Shown here: positions 1,362 to 27,692 of the stretch, in pieces | Numbering within the stretch: the first letter of the stretch is position 1 | Layout: the number at the start of each line of letters is the position of its first letter | Source: Roseateles sp. | GTDB lineage: Bacteria > Pseudomonadota > Gammaproteobacteria > Burkholderiales > Burkholderiaceae_C | Reading direction: 5' to 3' | Assembly (NCBI GenBank): GCA_016790285.1 | Contig: JAEUPJ010000018.1 | Coordinates: forward strand, 1-64,000 | DNA length: 64,000 bases | Made by a program: the position numbers and the translations under genes | The notes under the pieces: model-generated | The model's database searches: none | What the model was told of the DNA's origin: nothing | What the model saw: only the letters and a program-made list of their open reading frames with translations

Positions 1362-1456
1362 AACACAGCCACAGAGGCACAGAGACACAGAGAAATGGGT
1401 CTCTGTCGAGTGACTCTGTGCTGTCTCTGTGTCTCCTTTTCTCTGTGGTCGTGTTC
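1362..1456. repeat. CACAGAG palindromic repeat, copy 1
   Basis: Imperfect palindrome between urtA and urtB. The left arm (1362-1393) is made of CACAGAG units and the right arm (about 1424-1456) of the complementary CTCTGTG units, separated by an unrelated core. Transcribed as RNA it would form a hairpin with a stem of roughly 30 pairs. The right arm ends in GTGTTC, 15 nt before the urtB ATG. It is the first of four related copies in the window. Confidence 0.85.
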
Positions 1457-1471
1457 TTCCGCTGCCGCTCC

Positions 1472-3013
1472 ATGACTCTGATTCGATGGCTTCTGTGCCT
1501 CGGCCTGCTGGCTCTGGCACCTGCCTGGGCCCTCTCGCCTGATCTGGCGACGCGTATCGCGGTCGGCGAAGGCGACGACCGCGTCGCCGCGCTGCAGCAG
1601 GCGCTGGCCGCGGGTGATGAGTCGCTCGGCCCCTTCCTGCGTGCCTTGCAGGATGGCCGCGTCCGCATCAAGGGCGGGCAGGCCCTCGTCATCGCGGAGG
1701 GCGCAGCCGCGCCCGCCGATGCGGAGGAGCCCATGCTCAACAACCGCATGCGCCGCGAGATCGAGTCGGCGCTGGCGGGCCTGAACCTGCTGTCCAAGGA
1801 CCGGGAAACGCGCGCCAAGGCCCTGGCCACGCTGCGCGACGACGCCGACGCCGGCAAGCTGCCGTTGCTGGAAAAGGCGCTGGCCGCGGAAAGCGATGCC
1901 GCCTTGCGCGCCCAGCTGAGCGCCCTGGTGGCCGGCGCCAAGCTGTCGTCCACCGACCCGTCGCAGCGGCGCATCGCCGCGACCGAACTCGCCAGCAGCG
2001 CGGACCCGGCCACCCGTGCGCTGCTGCTGGAAAAGCTGGCGGCCGAAACCGACCCCGCCGCCAGGAGCGCCATGCAGAAGGCCGTGGCCGACATCGGTGA
2101 CCGCCTGGCCTGGGGCGAGCGCGCCCAGCTGCTGTTCTCGGGCCTGAGCCTGGGTTCGGTGCTGCTGCTGGTGGCACTCGGCCTGGCCATCACCTATGGC
2201 CTGATGGGCGTCATCAACATGGCGCACGGCGAGCTGCTGATGGTGGGCGCCTACGCCACCTACAGCGTGCAGCAGGCCTTCCGGGCCTGGGCGCCGGGCG
2301 CCTTCGACTACTACCTCTGGGTGGCCCTGCCCGCCAGCTTCCTGGCCGCGGCGCTGGTGGGCGCGGCCATGGAACGCAGCGTCATCCGCTGGCTGTACGG
2401 CCGCCCGCTGGAGACGCTGCTGGCCACCTGGGGCATTTCCCTCGTGCTGATGCAGGCGGTGCGCAGCCTCTTCGGCGCACAGAACGTGGCCGTGGAGAAC
2501 CCGGGGTGGCTCTCCGGCGGCTGGGCGCTGCTGCCCAACCTGACGCTGCCCTACAACCGCCTGGCCATCCTCGCGTTTGCTGCCGTCGTGCTCGTGGGCA
2601 TGGCGCTGCTGCTGTCGCGCACGCGCCTGGGGCTGATGGTGCGCGGCGTGACGCAGAACCGCCGCATGGCCGCCTGCGTGGGCGTGAACACCTCGCGCGT
2701 CGACACCCTGGCCTTCGCGCTCGGCTCGGGCATTGCCGGCCTGGCCGGCTGCGCGCTGAGCCAGATCGGCAACGTCGGCCCCGACCTCGGCCAGAGCTAC
2801 ATCGTGGACGCCTTCATGGTGGTCGTGCTCGGTGGCGTCGGCCAGCTCGCCGGCACCGTCTACGCGGGCCTGGGCCTCGGGGTGCTGTCCAAGCTGCTCG
2901 AAGGCTGGCAGGGCGCCGTGCTCGCCAAGATTGCCCTCCTGATGCTGCTCGTGCTCGTGATCCAGAAAAAGCCGCAAGGCCTGTTCGCCCTGAAAGGCAG
3001 GGCCGTGGAATGA
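1472..3013 (+). CDS. urtB: Urea ABC transporter, permease UrtB
   Basis: Inner-membrane permease of the LivH type, pairing with UrtC. The 513-residue product has a signal-like N-terminus, then about 200 residues of soluble, alanine-rich helical region (roughly 25-215) typical of proteobacterial UrtB, then a block of eight or so transmembrane helices starting near GLSLGSVLLLVALGLAITYG. An in-frame GTG at 1418 would extend the protein through the CACAGAG repeat. I chose the ATG at 1472 because the extension is translated repeat and the ATG version begins with a normal hydrophobic signal. No obvious Shine-Dalgarno sequence precedes the ATG, which is unusual. Confidence 0.93.
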   Translation: MTLIRWLLCLGLLALAPAWALSPDLATRIAVGEGDDRVAALQQALAAGDESLGPFLRALQDGRVRIKGGQALVIAEGAAAPADAEEPMLNNRMRREIESALAGLNLLSKDRETRAKALATLRDDADAGKLPLLEKALAAESDAALRAQLSALVAGAKLSSTDPSQRRIAATELASSADPATRALLLEKLAAETDPAARSAMQKAVADIGDRLAWGERAQLLFSGLSLGSVLLLVALGLAITYGLMGVINMAHGELLMVGAYATYSVQQAFRAWAPGAFDYYLWVALPASFLAAALVGAAMERSVIRWLYGRPLETLLATWGISLVLMQAVRSLFGAQNVAVENPGWLSGGWALLPNLTLPYNRLAILAFAAVVLVGMALLLSRTRLGLMVRGVTQNRRMAACVGVNTSRVDTLAFALGSGIAGLAGCALSQIGNVGPDLGQSYIVDAFMVVVLGGVGQLAGTVYAGLGLGVLSKLLEGWQGAVLAKIALLMLLVLVIQKKPQGLFALKGRAVE

Positions 3014-3018
3014 AGTGG

Positions 3019-3117
3019 AAAACAAGGCCACAGAGGCACAGAGACACAGAGAGGTCACCACGCTCTCTGTGTGAAGGTGTGCCTTCTCTGTGCCTCTGTG
3101 TCTCTGTGGATGTGTTC
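3019..3117. repeat. CACAGAG palindromic repeat, copy 2
   Basis: Second copy, between urtB and urtC, beginning only about 6 nt after the urtB stop. The left arm (3019-3053) carries GCCACAGAGGCACAGAGACA and the right arm (about 3083-3117) its near-complement, ending GTGTTC. The ATG of urtC follows after 14 nt. The core between the arms is unrelated to that of copy 1. Confidence 0.85.
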
Positions 3118-3131
3118 ATGGGGCGCCCCGC

Positions 3132-4178
3132 ATGAAGCGACTCTTTCTCATCGTGACGGCCTTGGTGCTGCTGCTGGCACCCTTGCTTCACCTCGCCTTC
3201 CCGGCCGGACACCCGCTGCACCTCAGCGAGTTCTACGTGGGCCTGCTGGGCAAGTTCCTTTGCTTTGCCATTTGTGCCCTGGCCTTGGACCTCATCTGGG
3301 GTTTCGGCGGCATCCTGTCGCTGGGCCATGGGCTCTTCTTTGCCCTCGGGGGCTATGGCATGGGCATGTACCTCATGCGCCAGATCGGGCGCGAGGGCCA
3401 GTACCAGTCGGACCTGCCGGACTTCATGGTCTTCCTGAACTGGAAGGAGCTGCCCTGGCACTGGGCGCTCAGCGACTCCCTCGTTGGCCAGGTGTTCCTC
3501 GCGCTGGCGGTGCCGGCCTTGCTGGCGGCCGTCTTCGGCTACTTCGCCTTCCGCTCGCGCATCCAGGGCGTGTACTTCTCCATCATCACGCAGGCGCTCA
3601 CGGTGGCGGCCATGCTGCTGTTCTTCCGCAACGAGACGGGCTTCGGCGGCAACAACGGCTTCACCGACTTCAAGCGCATCGCCGGCCTGTCGCTGAACAC
3701 GCCGGGCATGAAGGTGGGCCTGTGCGTGGCCAGCGGCGTGGCGCTGATCGGCTGCTACCTCGTGGCGCGCGCGCTCACGCAAAGCCGCTGGGGCCGCATC
3801 CTGCAGGCCATCCGCGACGCCGAAGGCCGCGTGCGCTTCCTGGGCTACGACCCGGTCGCGTTCAAGCTCAGCGCCTATGTGATCTCGGCGGTGATGTGCG
3901 CGCTGGCGGGCGTGCTTTACGTGCCCCAGGTCGGCATCATCAACCCCGGCGAGATGAGCCCGGCGGCCAGCATCGAGATGGCCATCTGGGCCGCCGTCGG
4001 TGGCCGCGGCACGCTCATCGGGCCGGTGCTCGGCGCCTTCTTCGTCAACGGCACCAAGTCCGTCTTCACCGTGTGGTGGCCCGAGGGTTGGCTCTACGTG
4101 CTCGGTGCGCTCTTCATCGCCGTCACGCTCTTCCTGCCCGCCGGGCTGGTGGGGCTGGTGCGGAGGTTTAAGTCATGA
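3132..4178 (+). CDS. urtC: Urea ABC transporter, permease UrtC
   Basis: Second permease (LivM type) of the urea importer, 348 residues, multi-spanning. It opens with a signal/transmembrane helix (MKRLFLIVTALVLLLAPLL) and contains the family block DLIWGFGGILSLGHGLFFAL. An in-frame start 42 nt upstream (3090) would add residues that are only translated CACAGAG repeat, so the ATG at 3132 is preferred. The stop overlaps the urtD start (ATGA, 4175-4178), implying translational coupling. The middle region has the LivM-type cytoplasmic motif GRILQAIRDAEGRVRFLGYD. Confidence 0.94.
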   Translation: MKRLFLIVTALVLLLAPLLHLAFPAGHPLHLSEFYVGLLGKFLCFAICALALDLIWGFGGILSLGHGLFFALGGYGMGMYLMRQIGREGQYQSDLPDFMVFLNWKELPWHWALSDSLVGQVFLALAVPALLAAVFGYFAFRSRIQGVYFSIITQALTVAAMLLFFRNETGFGGNNGFTDFKRIAGLSLNTPGMKVGLCVASGVALIGCYLVARALTQSRWGRILQAIRDAEGRVRFLGYDPVAFKLSAYVISAVMCALAGVLYVPQVGIINPGEMSPAASIEMAIWAAVGGRGTLIGPVLGAFFVNGTKSVFTVWWPEGWLYVLGALFIAVTLFLPAGLVGLVRRFKS

Positions 4179-5008
4179 CCCCGGAACTGCTGGAAGCCGG
4201 CGCCGAGACCCGCTCGCGCGCCATCACCCGCATCGCCACCGCCGGCGAGCCCATCTTCAACCAGGGCGTGGCGCTGTACGTGGAAGACCTCATGGTCGCC
4301 TTCGATGGCTTCCAGGCCCTGGGCGGCCTGAGCTTCACGGTGGGTGTGGGCGAGTTGCGCTGCGTCATCGGCCCCAACGGCGCGGGCAAGACGACCACCA
4401 TGGACTGCATCACCGGCAAGACCCGGCCGGACAGCGGCCGCATCTTCTTCGGCAGCAACCTGGACCTGCGCACGATGAACGAGGCCGAGATCGCCCGCGC
4501 GGGCATTGGCCGCAAGTTCCAGAAGCCCACGGTGTTCGAGGCCCTGACCGTGGCCGAGAACCTGGAGCTCGCGCTGGCCGGCAACCGCAGCGCGCGTTTT
4601 GCGATGCGCGCCCGCCTGACGGGCGAGCAGCACGACCGAATGAACGAGCTGCTGCACACCGTGCACCTGGCCGAGGAACGCCACCGCGTGGCGGGCCTGC
4701 TCAGCCACGGCCAGAAGCAGTGGCTGGAGATCGGCATGCTGCTGGCCCAGGACCCCAAGCTGCTGCTGCTGGACGAGCCCGTGGCCGGCATGACCGACGA
4801 GGAGACGGAGCGCACGGCCGAGCTCTTCCTGAGCCTGGAGGGCAAGCACAGCCTCGTGGTCGTGGAGCACGACATGAGCTTCGTCGCCACCCTGGCGTCC
4901 ACGCACCGCACGGTGACCGTGCTGCACGAGGGCAAGACGCTGGCCGAGGGCACGATGGCCTCGGTTCAGTCAGATGAAAAGGTGATCGAGGTCTACCTTG
5001 GACGATGA
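4175..5008 (+). CDS. urtD: Urea ABC transporter, ATP-binding protein UrtD
   Basis: First of the two ATPases that power urea import. The 277-residue protein has a Walker A motif (GPNGAGKTTT, near residue 68), an ABC signature variant (LSHGQKQWLEIGM) and Walker B LLLLDEPVAGM. The LSHGQKQ form is characteristic of UrtD. It carries about 35 extra residues ahead of the usual ABC start, which could mean a later true start, but the ATGA overlap with urtC supports 4175. It lies in the urtABCDE operon. Confidence 0.95.
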   Translation: MTPELLEAGAETRSRAITRIATAGEPIFNQGVALYVEDLMVAFDGFQALGGLSFTVGVGELRCVIGPNGAGKTTTMDCITGKTRPDSGRIFFGSNLDLRTMNEAEIARAGIGRKFQKPTVFEALTVAENLELALAGNRSARFAMRARLTGEQHDRMNELLHTVHLAEERHRVAGLLSHGQKQWLEIGMLLAQDPKLLLLDEPVAGMTDEETERTAELFLSLEGKHSLVVVEHDMSFVATLASTHRTVTVLHEGKTLAEGTMASVQSDEKVIEVYLGR

Positions 5009-5012
5009 AAGC

Positions 5013-5108
5013 AAAACACGGCCACAGAGGCACAGAGCCACACAGAGGCTCAGCACTCTCGCCGCCACCGTGTTCTCTCTGTGCCTCTGTGTCTCCGTGG
5101 CTGTGTTC
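5013..5108. repeat. CACAGAG palindromic repeat, copy 3
   Basis: Third copy, between urtD and urtE, beginning about 4 nt after the urtD stop. The left arm (5013-5048) carries GGCCACAGAGGCACAGAG. The right arm (about 5074-5108) carries CTCTGTGCCTCTGTG and ends GTGTTC, 14 nt before the urtE ATG. The core is again different. Confidence 0.85.
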
Positions 5109-5122
5109 TTGAGGGCTTCGCA

Positions 5123-5827
5123 ATGACCCAACCCATCCTCGAAGTCACCGACCTGCACCAGCACTACGGCGGCTCCCACATCCTGCGGGGCCTCACCTTC
5201 GACCTCCAGCCTGGCGAGATCACCGTCGTGCTCGGCCGCAACGGCGTGGGCAAGACGACGCTGCTCAAGAGCCTGATGGGCGTCGTGCCCACCACGTCGG
5301 GCAGCATCGCGCTGGCTGGACAGGCCATCGACAAGTTGCGCACCCATCAGCGCGTGCGCGCAGGGCTGGGCTACGTGCCGCAGGGGCGCGAGATCTTCGG
5401 GCGGCTCTCGGTCGTCGAGAACCTGCAGATGGGCCTGGCCAGCCAACCGGCCGGCACGCCGCTGCCGGTGGAGCTGTTCGAGCTGTTCCCGGTGCTGGCC
5501 AAGATGCGCAGCCGCCGTGGCGGCGACCTCTCCGGCGGGCAGCAGCAGCAGCTGGCCATCGCCCGGGCGCTGGCGCCGGGGCCCAAGGTGCTGCTGCTGG
5601 ACGAGCCCACCGAAGGCATCCAGCCCAACGTCATCCAGGACATCGGCCGCGTCATCAAGCACCTGGCCCATGACAAGGGGCTGTCGGTCGTGCTGGTCGA
5701 GCAGTTCTACGACTTCGCCGAGGAGCTCGCAGACCAGTACCTGTTGATGCAGCGCGGCGAGATCGTCATGCGCGGGCGTGGCAAGGACATGGCGGCCGAC
5801 GGCGTGCGGGAGCGCCTCGCCATCTGA
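5123..5827 (+). CDS. urtE: Urea ABC transporter, ATP-binding protein UrtE
   Basis: Second ATPase of the urea importer (LivF type), 234 residues. Walker A is GRNGVGKTTLLK, the signature is LSGGQQQQLAIARAL and Walker B is LLLDEPTEGIQP, the last being typical of UrtE/LivF. An in-frame start at 5081 would add residues encoded by the CACAGAG repeat. The ATG at 5123 is preferred because GAGGG lies 8-12 nt upstream and the protein then begins in the usual family way (MTQPILEV). It closes the urt operon and meets the convergent DUF2789 gene after only 4 nt. Confidence 0.94.
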   Translation: MTQPILEVTDLHQHYGGSHILRGLTFDLQPGEITVVLGRNGVGKTTLLKSLMGVVPTTSGSIALAGQAIDKLRTHQRVRAGLGYVPQGREIFGRLSVVENLQMGLASQPAGTPLPVELFELFPVLAKMRSRRGGDLSGGQQQQLAIARALAPGPKVLLLDEPTEGIQPNVIQDIGRVIKHLAHDKGLSVVLVEQFYDFAEELADQYLLMQRGEIVMRGRGKDMAADGVRERLAI

Positions 5828-24304: not shown

Positions 24305-26398
<2,094 letters not shown>

Positions 26399-26408
26399 TC
26401 AAGGTCCG

Positions 26409-26500
26409 AACAACACAGCCACAGAGACACAGAGGCACAGAGAACATGCAGCGAGCTCAGAGTTCTTTCTCTGTGTCTCTGTGTCTCTGTGGCTTTGTTC
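26409..26500. repeat. CACAGAG palindromic repeat, copy 4
   Basis: Fourth copy, between the bifunctional beta-oxidation gene and thiolase, about 11 nt after the first stop. The left arm (26409-26443) contains CAGCCACAGAGACACAGAGG. The right arm (about 26465-26500) is CTCTGTG units and ends TTTGTTC. The thiolase ATG follows after 16 nt. It shows the element is not confined to the urt operon. Confidence 0.85.
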
Positions 26501-26516
26501 GCATTGAGGAATTCAC

Positions 26517-27692
26517 ATGAGCAACGCACTGATCGTCTCCACCGCCCGCACCCCGCTGACCAAGAGCTGGAAGGGCGCCTTCAACATGACCCATGGCGCC
26601 ACGCTGGGCGGCTGGGCCGTCAAGGCCGCCGTCGAGCGCGCGGGCATCGAGGCCGGCGCCATCGAGGACGTGCTGATGGGCTGCGCCAACCCCGAGGGGG
26701 CCACGGGTGCCAACATCGCCCGCCAGATCGCGCTCAAGGCCGGCCTGCCAGTCACGGTGAGCGGCGTCACCATCAACCGCTTCTGTTCCAGCGGCCTGCA
26801 GACCATCGCCATGGCCGCCCAGCGCATCATCGCCGGCGAGGGCGATGTCTATGTGGCGGGTGGCGTGGAGAGCATCTCCTGCGTGCAGCAGGAGATGAAC
26901 AAGCACATGCTGTCGGACCCGTCGCTGTTGAAGATCAAGCCCGAGATCTACTGGAGCATGCTGCAGACCGCCGAGAACGTGGCCAAGCGCTACAACATCT
27001 CGCGCGAGCGCATGGACCAGTACGGCGCGGCCAGCCAGCAAAAGGCCTGTGCCGCCCAGGCCGCGGGCAAGTTCGCTGACGAGATGATCACGGTGACCGC
27101 GACCATGGGCGTGGCCGACAAGGTCATGGGCCTGATGAGCAAGGAAGTCACCGTGTCGGCCGACGAAGGCCTGCGCGAAGGCACGACGTTTGATTCCATC
27201 AAGGACCTGCGCACCGCGCTGCCGGGCGGCGTCATCAGCGCCGGCAACGCCAGCCAGTTCAGCGACGGCGCCGGCGCCTGCGCACTCGTGAGCGAGCAGT
27301 ACGCCTCGGCCCACAACCTGAAGCCCATCGGCCGCTTCCTCGGCTTTGCCGTGGCCGGCTGCGAGCCCGACGAAATGGGCATCGGCCCGGTGTTCGCCGT
27401 GCCCAAGGTGCTCAAGAAGCTGGGCCTGACGGTGGCCGACATCGACCTGTGGGAGCTCAACGAAGCCTTCGCCGTGCAGGTGCTGTACTGCGCCGACACG
27501 CTGGGCATCCCGATGGACCGCCTGAACGTCAACGGCGGCGCCATCGCGGTCGGCCACCCCTACGGCGTGTCGGGCCAGCGCCTGACGGGCCATGCCCTCA
27601 TCGAAGGCAAGCGCCGTGGTGCCAAGCGCGTCTGCGTGACGATGTGCATCGGCGGTGGCATGGGTGCTGCAGGCGTTTTCGAAGTGCTGTGA
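26517..27692 (+). CDS. Acetyl-CoA C-acyltransferase (thiolase)
   Basis: Final step of beta-oxidation, cleaving 3-ketoacyl-CoA with CoA. The 391 residues carry the thiolase catalytic set: nucleophile Cys in [12 protein letters not shown] near residue 88, the NEAF and GHPYG His motifs ([17 protein letters not shown]) and the second Cys in [10 protein letters not shown]. It lies in the beta-oxidation operon behind a CACAGAG repeat, with GAGGA as the ribosome binding site inside the 16-nt spacer. The chain-length preference cannot be read from sequence. Confidence 0.93.

Follow-up and report, generated by a model that had tools for sequence, protein, structure and literature searches.

The stretch analysed here, referred to as the window, comprises 64,000 nucleotides of a Roseateles sp. 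genome (contig JAEUPJ010000018.1; the genome is called G000 below). It opens with five genes called on the forward strand, whose names are those of an earlier reading of the sequence (the original prediction): urtA (23–1300), urtB (1472–3013), urtC (3132–4178), urtD (4175–5008) and urtE (5123–5827). Palindromes of about 95 bp with CACAGAG arms, to which no strand is assigned, occupy the urtA-urtB (1361–1456, with arms at 1361–1393 and 1424–1456), urtB-urtC (3019–3117) and urtD-urtE (5013–5108) junctions. We confirm that these three palindromes are real, with folding z-scores of −5.8, −6.5 and −6.6 against 200 shuffles. As originally described, their right arms end in GTGTTC 15, 14 and 14 nt 5′ of the ATGs at 1472, 3132 and 5123 (spacers 1457–1471, 3118–3131 and 5109–5122, forward strand), and the gap from the preceding stop is variable, at about 61, 5 and 4 nt. 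A fourth palindrome (26410–26501, likewise without strand) lies between the co-directional genes 24305–26398 and 26517–27692. The window as a whole holds 27 arm-like 15-mers where 8.1 are expected, a number reached by none of 100 shuffles, and no Rfam family matches within it at gathering score. We think it likely that a small element is present here in the form of non-autonomous copies, its full-length version coding for a GxxExxY nuclease, and that palindromes and nuclease together make up a two-component system resembling REPIN-RAYT.

The genome-wide search that the original prediction had proposed places the urt palindromes in a dispersed family of many copies. With at most one mismatch the arm pattern has 90 matches per strand in the whole genome, whereas the reversed control has 1 and 3; a single arm may figure more than once in these counts. 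From the places with 0 or 1 mismatch among the matches listed we worked with a subset of 62 copies, 58 fetched and the four of the window. The arm, AACACAGCCACAGAGgCACAGAGaCACAGAG, is 31 nt long with an 8-nt period. Among the 57 copies that could be parsed the consensus ends are AACACAGCC..GGCTGTGTT, and the cores are mutually unrelated and 5–68 nt long, with a single exception of 373 nt; comparison among the genome's copies thus bears out the earlier description of conserved arms around unrelated cores. The families of G062 and G065 have the identical design with different outer ends. At L272 of G062 (420–541) one arm holds eight tandem CACAGAGG units and the other three, an inequality that points to slippage within the arms.

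One copy in G000 (C74) carries a gene enclosed by the same arms, and this gene is the only PF13366 match of the genome. Its product belongs to the GxxExxY family, scoring 149.8 bits against TIGR04256 (cut-off 35, E = 3.7e-44) and 149.9 bits against PF13366, PDDEXK_3 (cut-off 22, E = 4.7e-44). Across 81 GxxExxY sequences D79, K91, Q103 and Y107 are invariant and E89 is nearly so, the pattern D..ExK..QxxxY being kept, and the protein is predicted to adopt a PD-(D/E)XK fold like that of Cas4 and lambda exonuclease. G000, G018, G009 and G013 each have one PF13366 gene, at the same place and with arms, at a ratio of nonsynonymous to synonymous divergence (dN/dS) of 0.03–0.07; the nuclease gene is under purifying selection in the genus. 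Elsewhere, G031 has at L092 a GxxExxY gene without visible arms in which the catalytic D is replaced by G, perhaps a decayed or repurposed copy. The contig JAIPCJ010000039.1 of a 'Methylotenera' metagenome-assembled genome carries a GxxExxY gene (L097:2501–2905) identical to that of G013 over the compared codons (dN = dS = 0); this contig is probably misbinned, and L097 is not independent within the set of GxxExxY loci. In 47 of the 69 loci where an arm unit was detected, the GxxExxY reading frame stays open through the arm; proteins whose N-termini are encoded by repeats in this way are a common kind of mis-annotation.

The nesting of the gene between arms extends well beyond the genus. A GxxExxY scan of 84,980 species genomes gave at least 574 confirmed relatives, the best 80 of which were used; two loci were dropped for too little flanking sequence. 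In 65 of the 78 loci tested, from many phyla, the flanks form an inverted repeat around the GxxExxY gene with a score of at least 13.0. This threshold is the 99th percentile of 298 controls taken 0.9–1.3 kb away at the same loci, the largest of which scored 13.5; the median score is 21.75 at the GxxExxY loci and 8.5 in the controls. Judged by eye, most arms are built of 8–10 nt units of the CACAGAG, CACGGAG, CGCAGAG, CACAAAG or CACGAAG kind, and a few repeats that pass the arm test, for example at L112, are of other kinds. G058 has five nucleases, each, again by eye, within its own arms. More than one PF13366 match occurs in 8 of the 20 positive genomes of a class sample (G000 included), some of the matches being fragments.

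The type of arm around the nuclease also tends to be the type dispersed in the same genome. We searched the genomes of 23 of the 80 loci, picked for clear arms, together with G058, for three arm patterns, the arm type having been assigned by eye from the nuclease's own arms. Matches to a genome's own pattern number 13, 2, 34, 23, 1, 35, 3, 11 and 43 in nine CACAGAG-type genomes, 13, 9, 17 and 30 in four CACGGAG-type genomes, and 12, 9, 6, 0, 1, 5, 86, 4, 2 and 0 in ten CRCRAAG-type genomes. The own type is the commonest in 19 of the 23, a number that none of 20,000 permutations reached (mean 8.0), and in 13 of the 23 when two matches are subtracted for the nuclease's arms (p = 0.0007). G058 has 7, 30 and 74 matches for the three patterns. 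Copy number tends to follow the gene as well: five nuclease-bearing genomes of the genus have 70–293 arm matches and 15 others 0–103 (both strands; 2 of 15,504 permutations, kinship ignored), and in the class sample of 140 genomes, with G000 left out, CACRGAG triplets occur in 6 of 19 PF13366-positive genomes and in 9 of 120 negative ones (p = 0.007).

Comparison of related genomes shows the palindromes to be present at some sites and missing at the same sites elsewhere. We compared the members of the genus whose urtC orthologue is ≥92% identical, 15 genomes with G000 included (92–96% in the 14 congeners). The urtB-urtC palindrome is found in G000, G018, G013 and G009 and is absent from the remaining 11, in which urtB and urtC overlap at ATGA (10 genomes) or TTGA (G017). 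Where G000 has the element, ATGAAG flanks it on both sides, and nothing in the empty site clearly corresponds to the 14 nt adjoining the right arm. The urtD-urtE element is present in G000, G018, G009 and G019, and ten genomes are empty there, their urtE apparently starting at a TTG within urtD (an inferred start); its 14-nt spacer, too, has no clear counterpart in empty sites. G013 has at this junction (L179) a different, GC-rich insert of 126 nt in place of the CACAGAG element, and the junction has therefore been struck by two kinds of insert. G018 and G009 share the urtA-urtB palindrome with G000, and G009 also the fourth palindrome of the window. The picture is similar at L068, a third junction at which genes overlap, and at L229:889 the element directly follows the stop, a spacer resembling the original 20 nt remaining. 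An apparently empty site, L260 compared with L043, resembles a match to a paralogue and was left out. We interpret the short and near-fixed spacing in urt as a side effect of insertion into junctions that leave hardly any space; at urtB-urtC and urtD-urtE the genes overlap in relatives.

The original prediction had proposed that this spacing reflects either a function in translation or mRNA processing, or a mobile element that targets sites just 5′ of ribosome binding sites. To define gene context genome-wide we used codon-based gene calling with the urt genes as training set; some of the starts are uncertain. Among the 62 copies in G000, 59 lie between co-directional genes, 2 in convergent and 1 in a divergent junction, and none is intragenic; the copy-free junctions of the same loci (n = 229) comprise 180 co-directional, 27 convergent and 22 divergent ones (binomial p = 0.0003 for the co-directional excess against gap counts, 1e-9 against intergenic bases). 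Distances were counted in the 59 copies left after three non-tandem ones were dropped. The distance from stop to element (median 14 nt, interquartile range 11–21) is tighter than that from element to start (median 24 nt, interquartile range 17–42), the latter including one of 1245 nt at L036 that probably reflects a missed gene. Only 13 of the 59 copies, or 9 of 55 without those of the window, fall in the bin of 14–17 nt, in which the arm boundary excludes the final C so that the 14 and 15 nt given above become 15 and 16. G018 and G009, many of whose copies are orthologous to those of G000 and are not independent repeats, have 28 of 32 and 25 of 28 copies in co-directional junctions, one G018 copy being called intragenic, and 3 of 28 and 3 of 25 in the same bin. 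A fixed distance of 14–15 nt to the start thus fails as a general rule, while the copies show no preference for convergent gene ends, the other outcome that had been named as speaking against a link to starts. The mobile-element proposal went in the right direction, given the mainly co-directional placement, the two convergent copies and the empty junctions elsewhere; its fixed position relative to the start did not hold. The small number of copies in divergent junctions suggests promoter harm or a target preference for stop/start junctions, two causes that cannot be separated here. We point out that a neat hairpin-to-start spacing at operon junctions need not mean regulation.

These distances also bear on the possibility that the palindromes act as RNA hairpins in operon mRNAs, tuning downstream translation or processing. 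With 59 of 62 copies between co-directional genes they would be transcribed, strong hairpins are predicted for the three urt copies, and the arms are preserved across large synonymous divergence. The compensating changes in the arms that the original prediction had named as support are, however, absent: complementarity between a copy's own arms is 0.860, below the 0.871 of swapped arms, and 99.9% of 2000 swaps reach 0.860 (57 copies). The low value is due mainly to two positions. At arm positions 4 and 23 (counted from 0) left and right arms mismatch above chance (own match 0.42 vs. 0.54 and 0.23 vs. 0.40; the parsed G000 copies, those of the window included), as if perfect palindromes were avoided. 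Read in the sense orientation, 54 parsed copies of the 59 co-directional ones have 50 G:U pairs and 46 A:C mismatches, which argues against an RNA role, as selection on an RNA stem would favor G:U. Together with the variable start distance and the absence of the urtB-urtC copy from 11 of 15 genomes, these results leave a role in translation or mRNA processing unsupported; we rejected an RNA-regulatory function on the start-distance, covariation and wobble tests, and consider the hairpin explanation very unlikely.

Arms and cores have different histories. When orthologous copies of G000, G018, G009 and other congeners are compared (84 rows, among them some pairs taken both ways round, after removal of 32 of 116 site pairs as unparsed or repeated), the arms are 0.92 identical, against 0.916 between non-orthologous copies, the cores 0.67 against 0.45, and the flanks 90%; the arms are conserved while the cores drift. 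The cores of orthologous copies are inverted at two loci (L052:4591–4670/L247:841 and L048:3029–3108/L214:887), and among 62 unique orthologous pairs 5 lie beyond the null's 99th percentile for inversion, three of these belonging to a single additional locus group, which suggests recombination between arms. Within five genomes, one of 2722 copy pairs shares a core, L247:841 and L241:904 in G009. Their cores agree at 17 of 18 bases, and there is partial resemblance about 10 nt outside the arms as well, so whole elements can be duplicated.

The same data could be explained if the palindromes were host DNA sites under selection, for instance for a structuring or repair protein, with the nuclease as a dedicated binder and not a mover. 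Arms held at consensus while cores drift, a nuclease gene and many copies that keep their place between species, purifying selection, and arms less self-complementary than chance would all fit this explanation. The pair in G009, on the other hand, shows duplication of a whole element, and the range from 0 to about 290 arm matches within the genus is unlike that of an essential site, and we regard selected host sites as quite improbable.

Several findings weigh against the palindromes being copies of a nuclease-encoding element. Thirteen of the 78 GxxExxY loci fail the arm test, and several of the low own-type counts may be the nuclease's own arms alone; two genomes (G076 and G082) have zero own-pattern matches, G069 has more CACAGAG matches (14) than matches of its own CACGGAG type (13), and G064 has 3 CRCRAAG matches against 1 of its own CACAGAG type. 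G019 is an exception in the genus, with 103 arm matches and no nuclease; G153 and G192 are likewise copy-rich without the nuclease gene, and 13 of the 19 nuclease-positive genomes of the class sample are without the CACRGAG pattern, the one arm type sought there. As to the fold, the best Foldseek match to a solved structure has E = 2.2e-3 and none reaches 0.001 (a family's absence from the list of fold matches excludes nothing), and the sequence search of solved structures returned only a chance globin at E = 0.47. Recent copying is rare, judging from the single pair in 2722. No clean target-site duplication was found, L229:889 included, and the one trace of duplication is a weak statistical signal: similarity between a copy's own flanks is 6.68, against 6.17 for swapped flanks (p = 0.004), yet none of 62 copies is at or above the 99th percentile. 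The relatives' sites matching the G009 duplicate, at 68–82% identity, are too diverged to define a target-site duplication. Finally, 61 short cores compared with the interior of the nuclease gene have a mean score of 7.41 against 7.20 when shuffled (largest 13 vs. 10), and an origin of the short cores as internal-deletion remnants of this gene is thus unsupported.

The last two points would suit old miniature inverted-repeat transposable elements (MITEs) mobilized by an unrelated transposase, with the GxxExxY gene as a passenger or defence nuclease that inserted into one of them. Such a chance insertion is at odds with a nuclease lying within arms in 65 of 78 loci from many phyla and with arm types that mostly agree with those dispersed in the genome concerned. 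Within about 1.5 kb on each side of the four Y1_Tnp loci of G000, the sole transposase family tested, there is moreover no arm-like 15-mer (≤2 mismatches). We therefore find the MITE explanation unlikely and favor an element in which a full-length form, with a RecB/Cas4/lambda-exonuclease-type GxxExxY gene between period-8 inverted arms, is accompanied by many short copies.

How such an element might work can be outlined as follows. The nuclease, encoded by one gene per genome in the genus where present and by up to five elsewhere, would recognize its own arm type and cut the arm or a cruciform formed by it, and repair from another copy would then spread the element and homogenize the arms, so that we infer a nuclease that drives copying or homogenization. 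Occasionally a whole palindrome may be copied to a new place. Copies would survive mainly in operon junctions, insertion elsewhere being harmful, and in the genus mainly just after stop codons. Whether this amounts to a separate class of bacterial and archaeal elements spanning phyla, in which a Cas4/RecB-like GxxExxY nuclease copies short-period palindromes and maintains their uniformity, is a broader proposal that we put forward tentatively and at slightly less than even chances. If true, it would be a non-HUH counterpart of REPIN-RAYT and would explain the CACAGAG-, CACGGAG-, CGCAGAG- and CACAAAG-type palindromes together with the function of the GxxExxY family. More generally, if the nuclease acts on the arms, a widespread nuclease family would gain a function, and the origin of numerous intergenic palindromes across many phyla would be explained.

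In the open-access mentions of GxxExxY that we examined the family is not connected with palindromic arms and no role is described for it; nor did our searches of the open-access literature yield a prior description of the pairing. The protein differs from Cas4, lambda exonuclease and RecB-type nucleases in its length of only about 135 aa and in its neighbors, which in G000 resemble, by eye, branched-chain amino-acid transporter genes and are neither cas nor helicase genes. The element resembles pairs of MITEs and insertion sequences in having a full-length form with one open reading frame between terminal inverted arms, many short forms without one, and presence or absence between species. 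It differs from such pairs in that the cores are not internal deletions, target-site duplication is not clear and the reading frame is not a known transposase.

The closest parallel is REPIN-RAYT, in which the enzyme is reported to be single-copy and vertically inherited, with more palindromes in genomes having the gene and very rare recent copying (PMC8049555). Here, too, many short intergenic palindromes per genome accompany a vertically kept nuclease gene that is flanked by them, copies are more numerous where the gene is present, and recent copying is very rare. The enzyme, on the other hand, is a PD-(D/E)XK nuclease here and an HUH/Y1 transposase there, and one to five genes occur per genome here, where REPIN-RAYT always has one. 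The arms consist of tandem 8–10 nt units around unrelated cores, unlike the stems of REPIN-RAYT palindromes with their GTAG/CGTC-type tag (PMC3733652), and this tag is not at the consensus ends of the parsed G000 copies. Given the different enzyme and the lack of arms at the four Y1_Tnp loci, we rejected a RAYT origin and do not count the system as a member of REPIN-RAYT. Should the arms prove to be the nuclease's substrate, a way of life like that of REPIN-RAYT would have arisen with an unrelated enzyme as well, and would offer a second, independent system in which to ask why bacteria keep a nuclease together with a population of palindromes.

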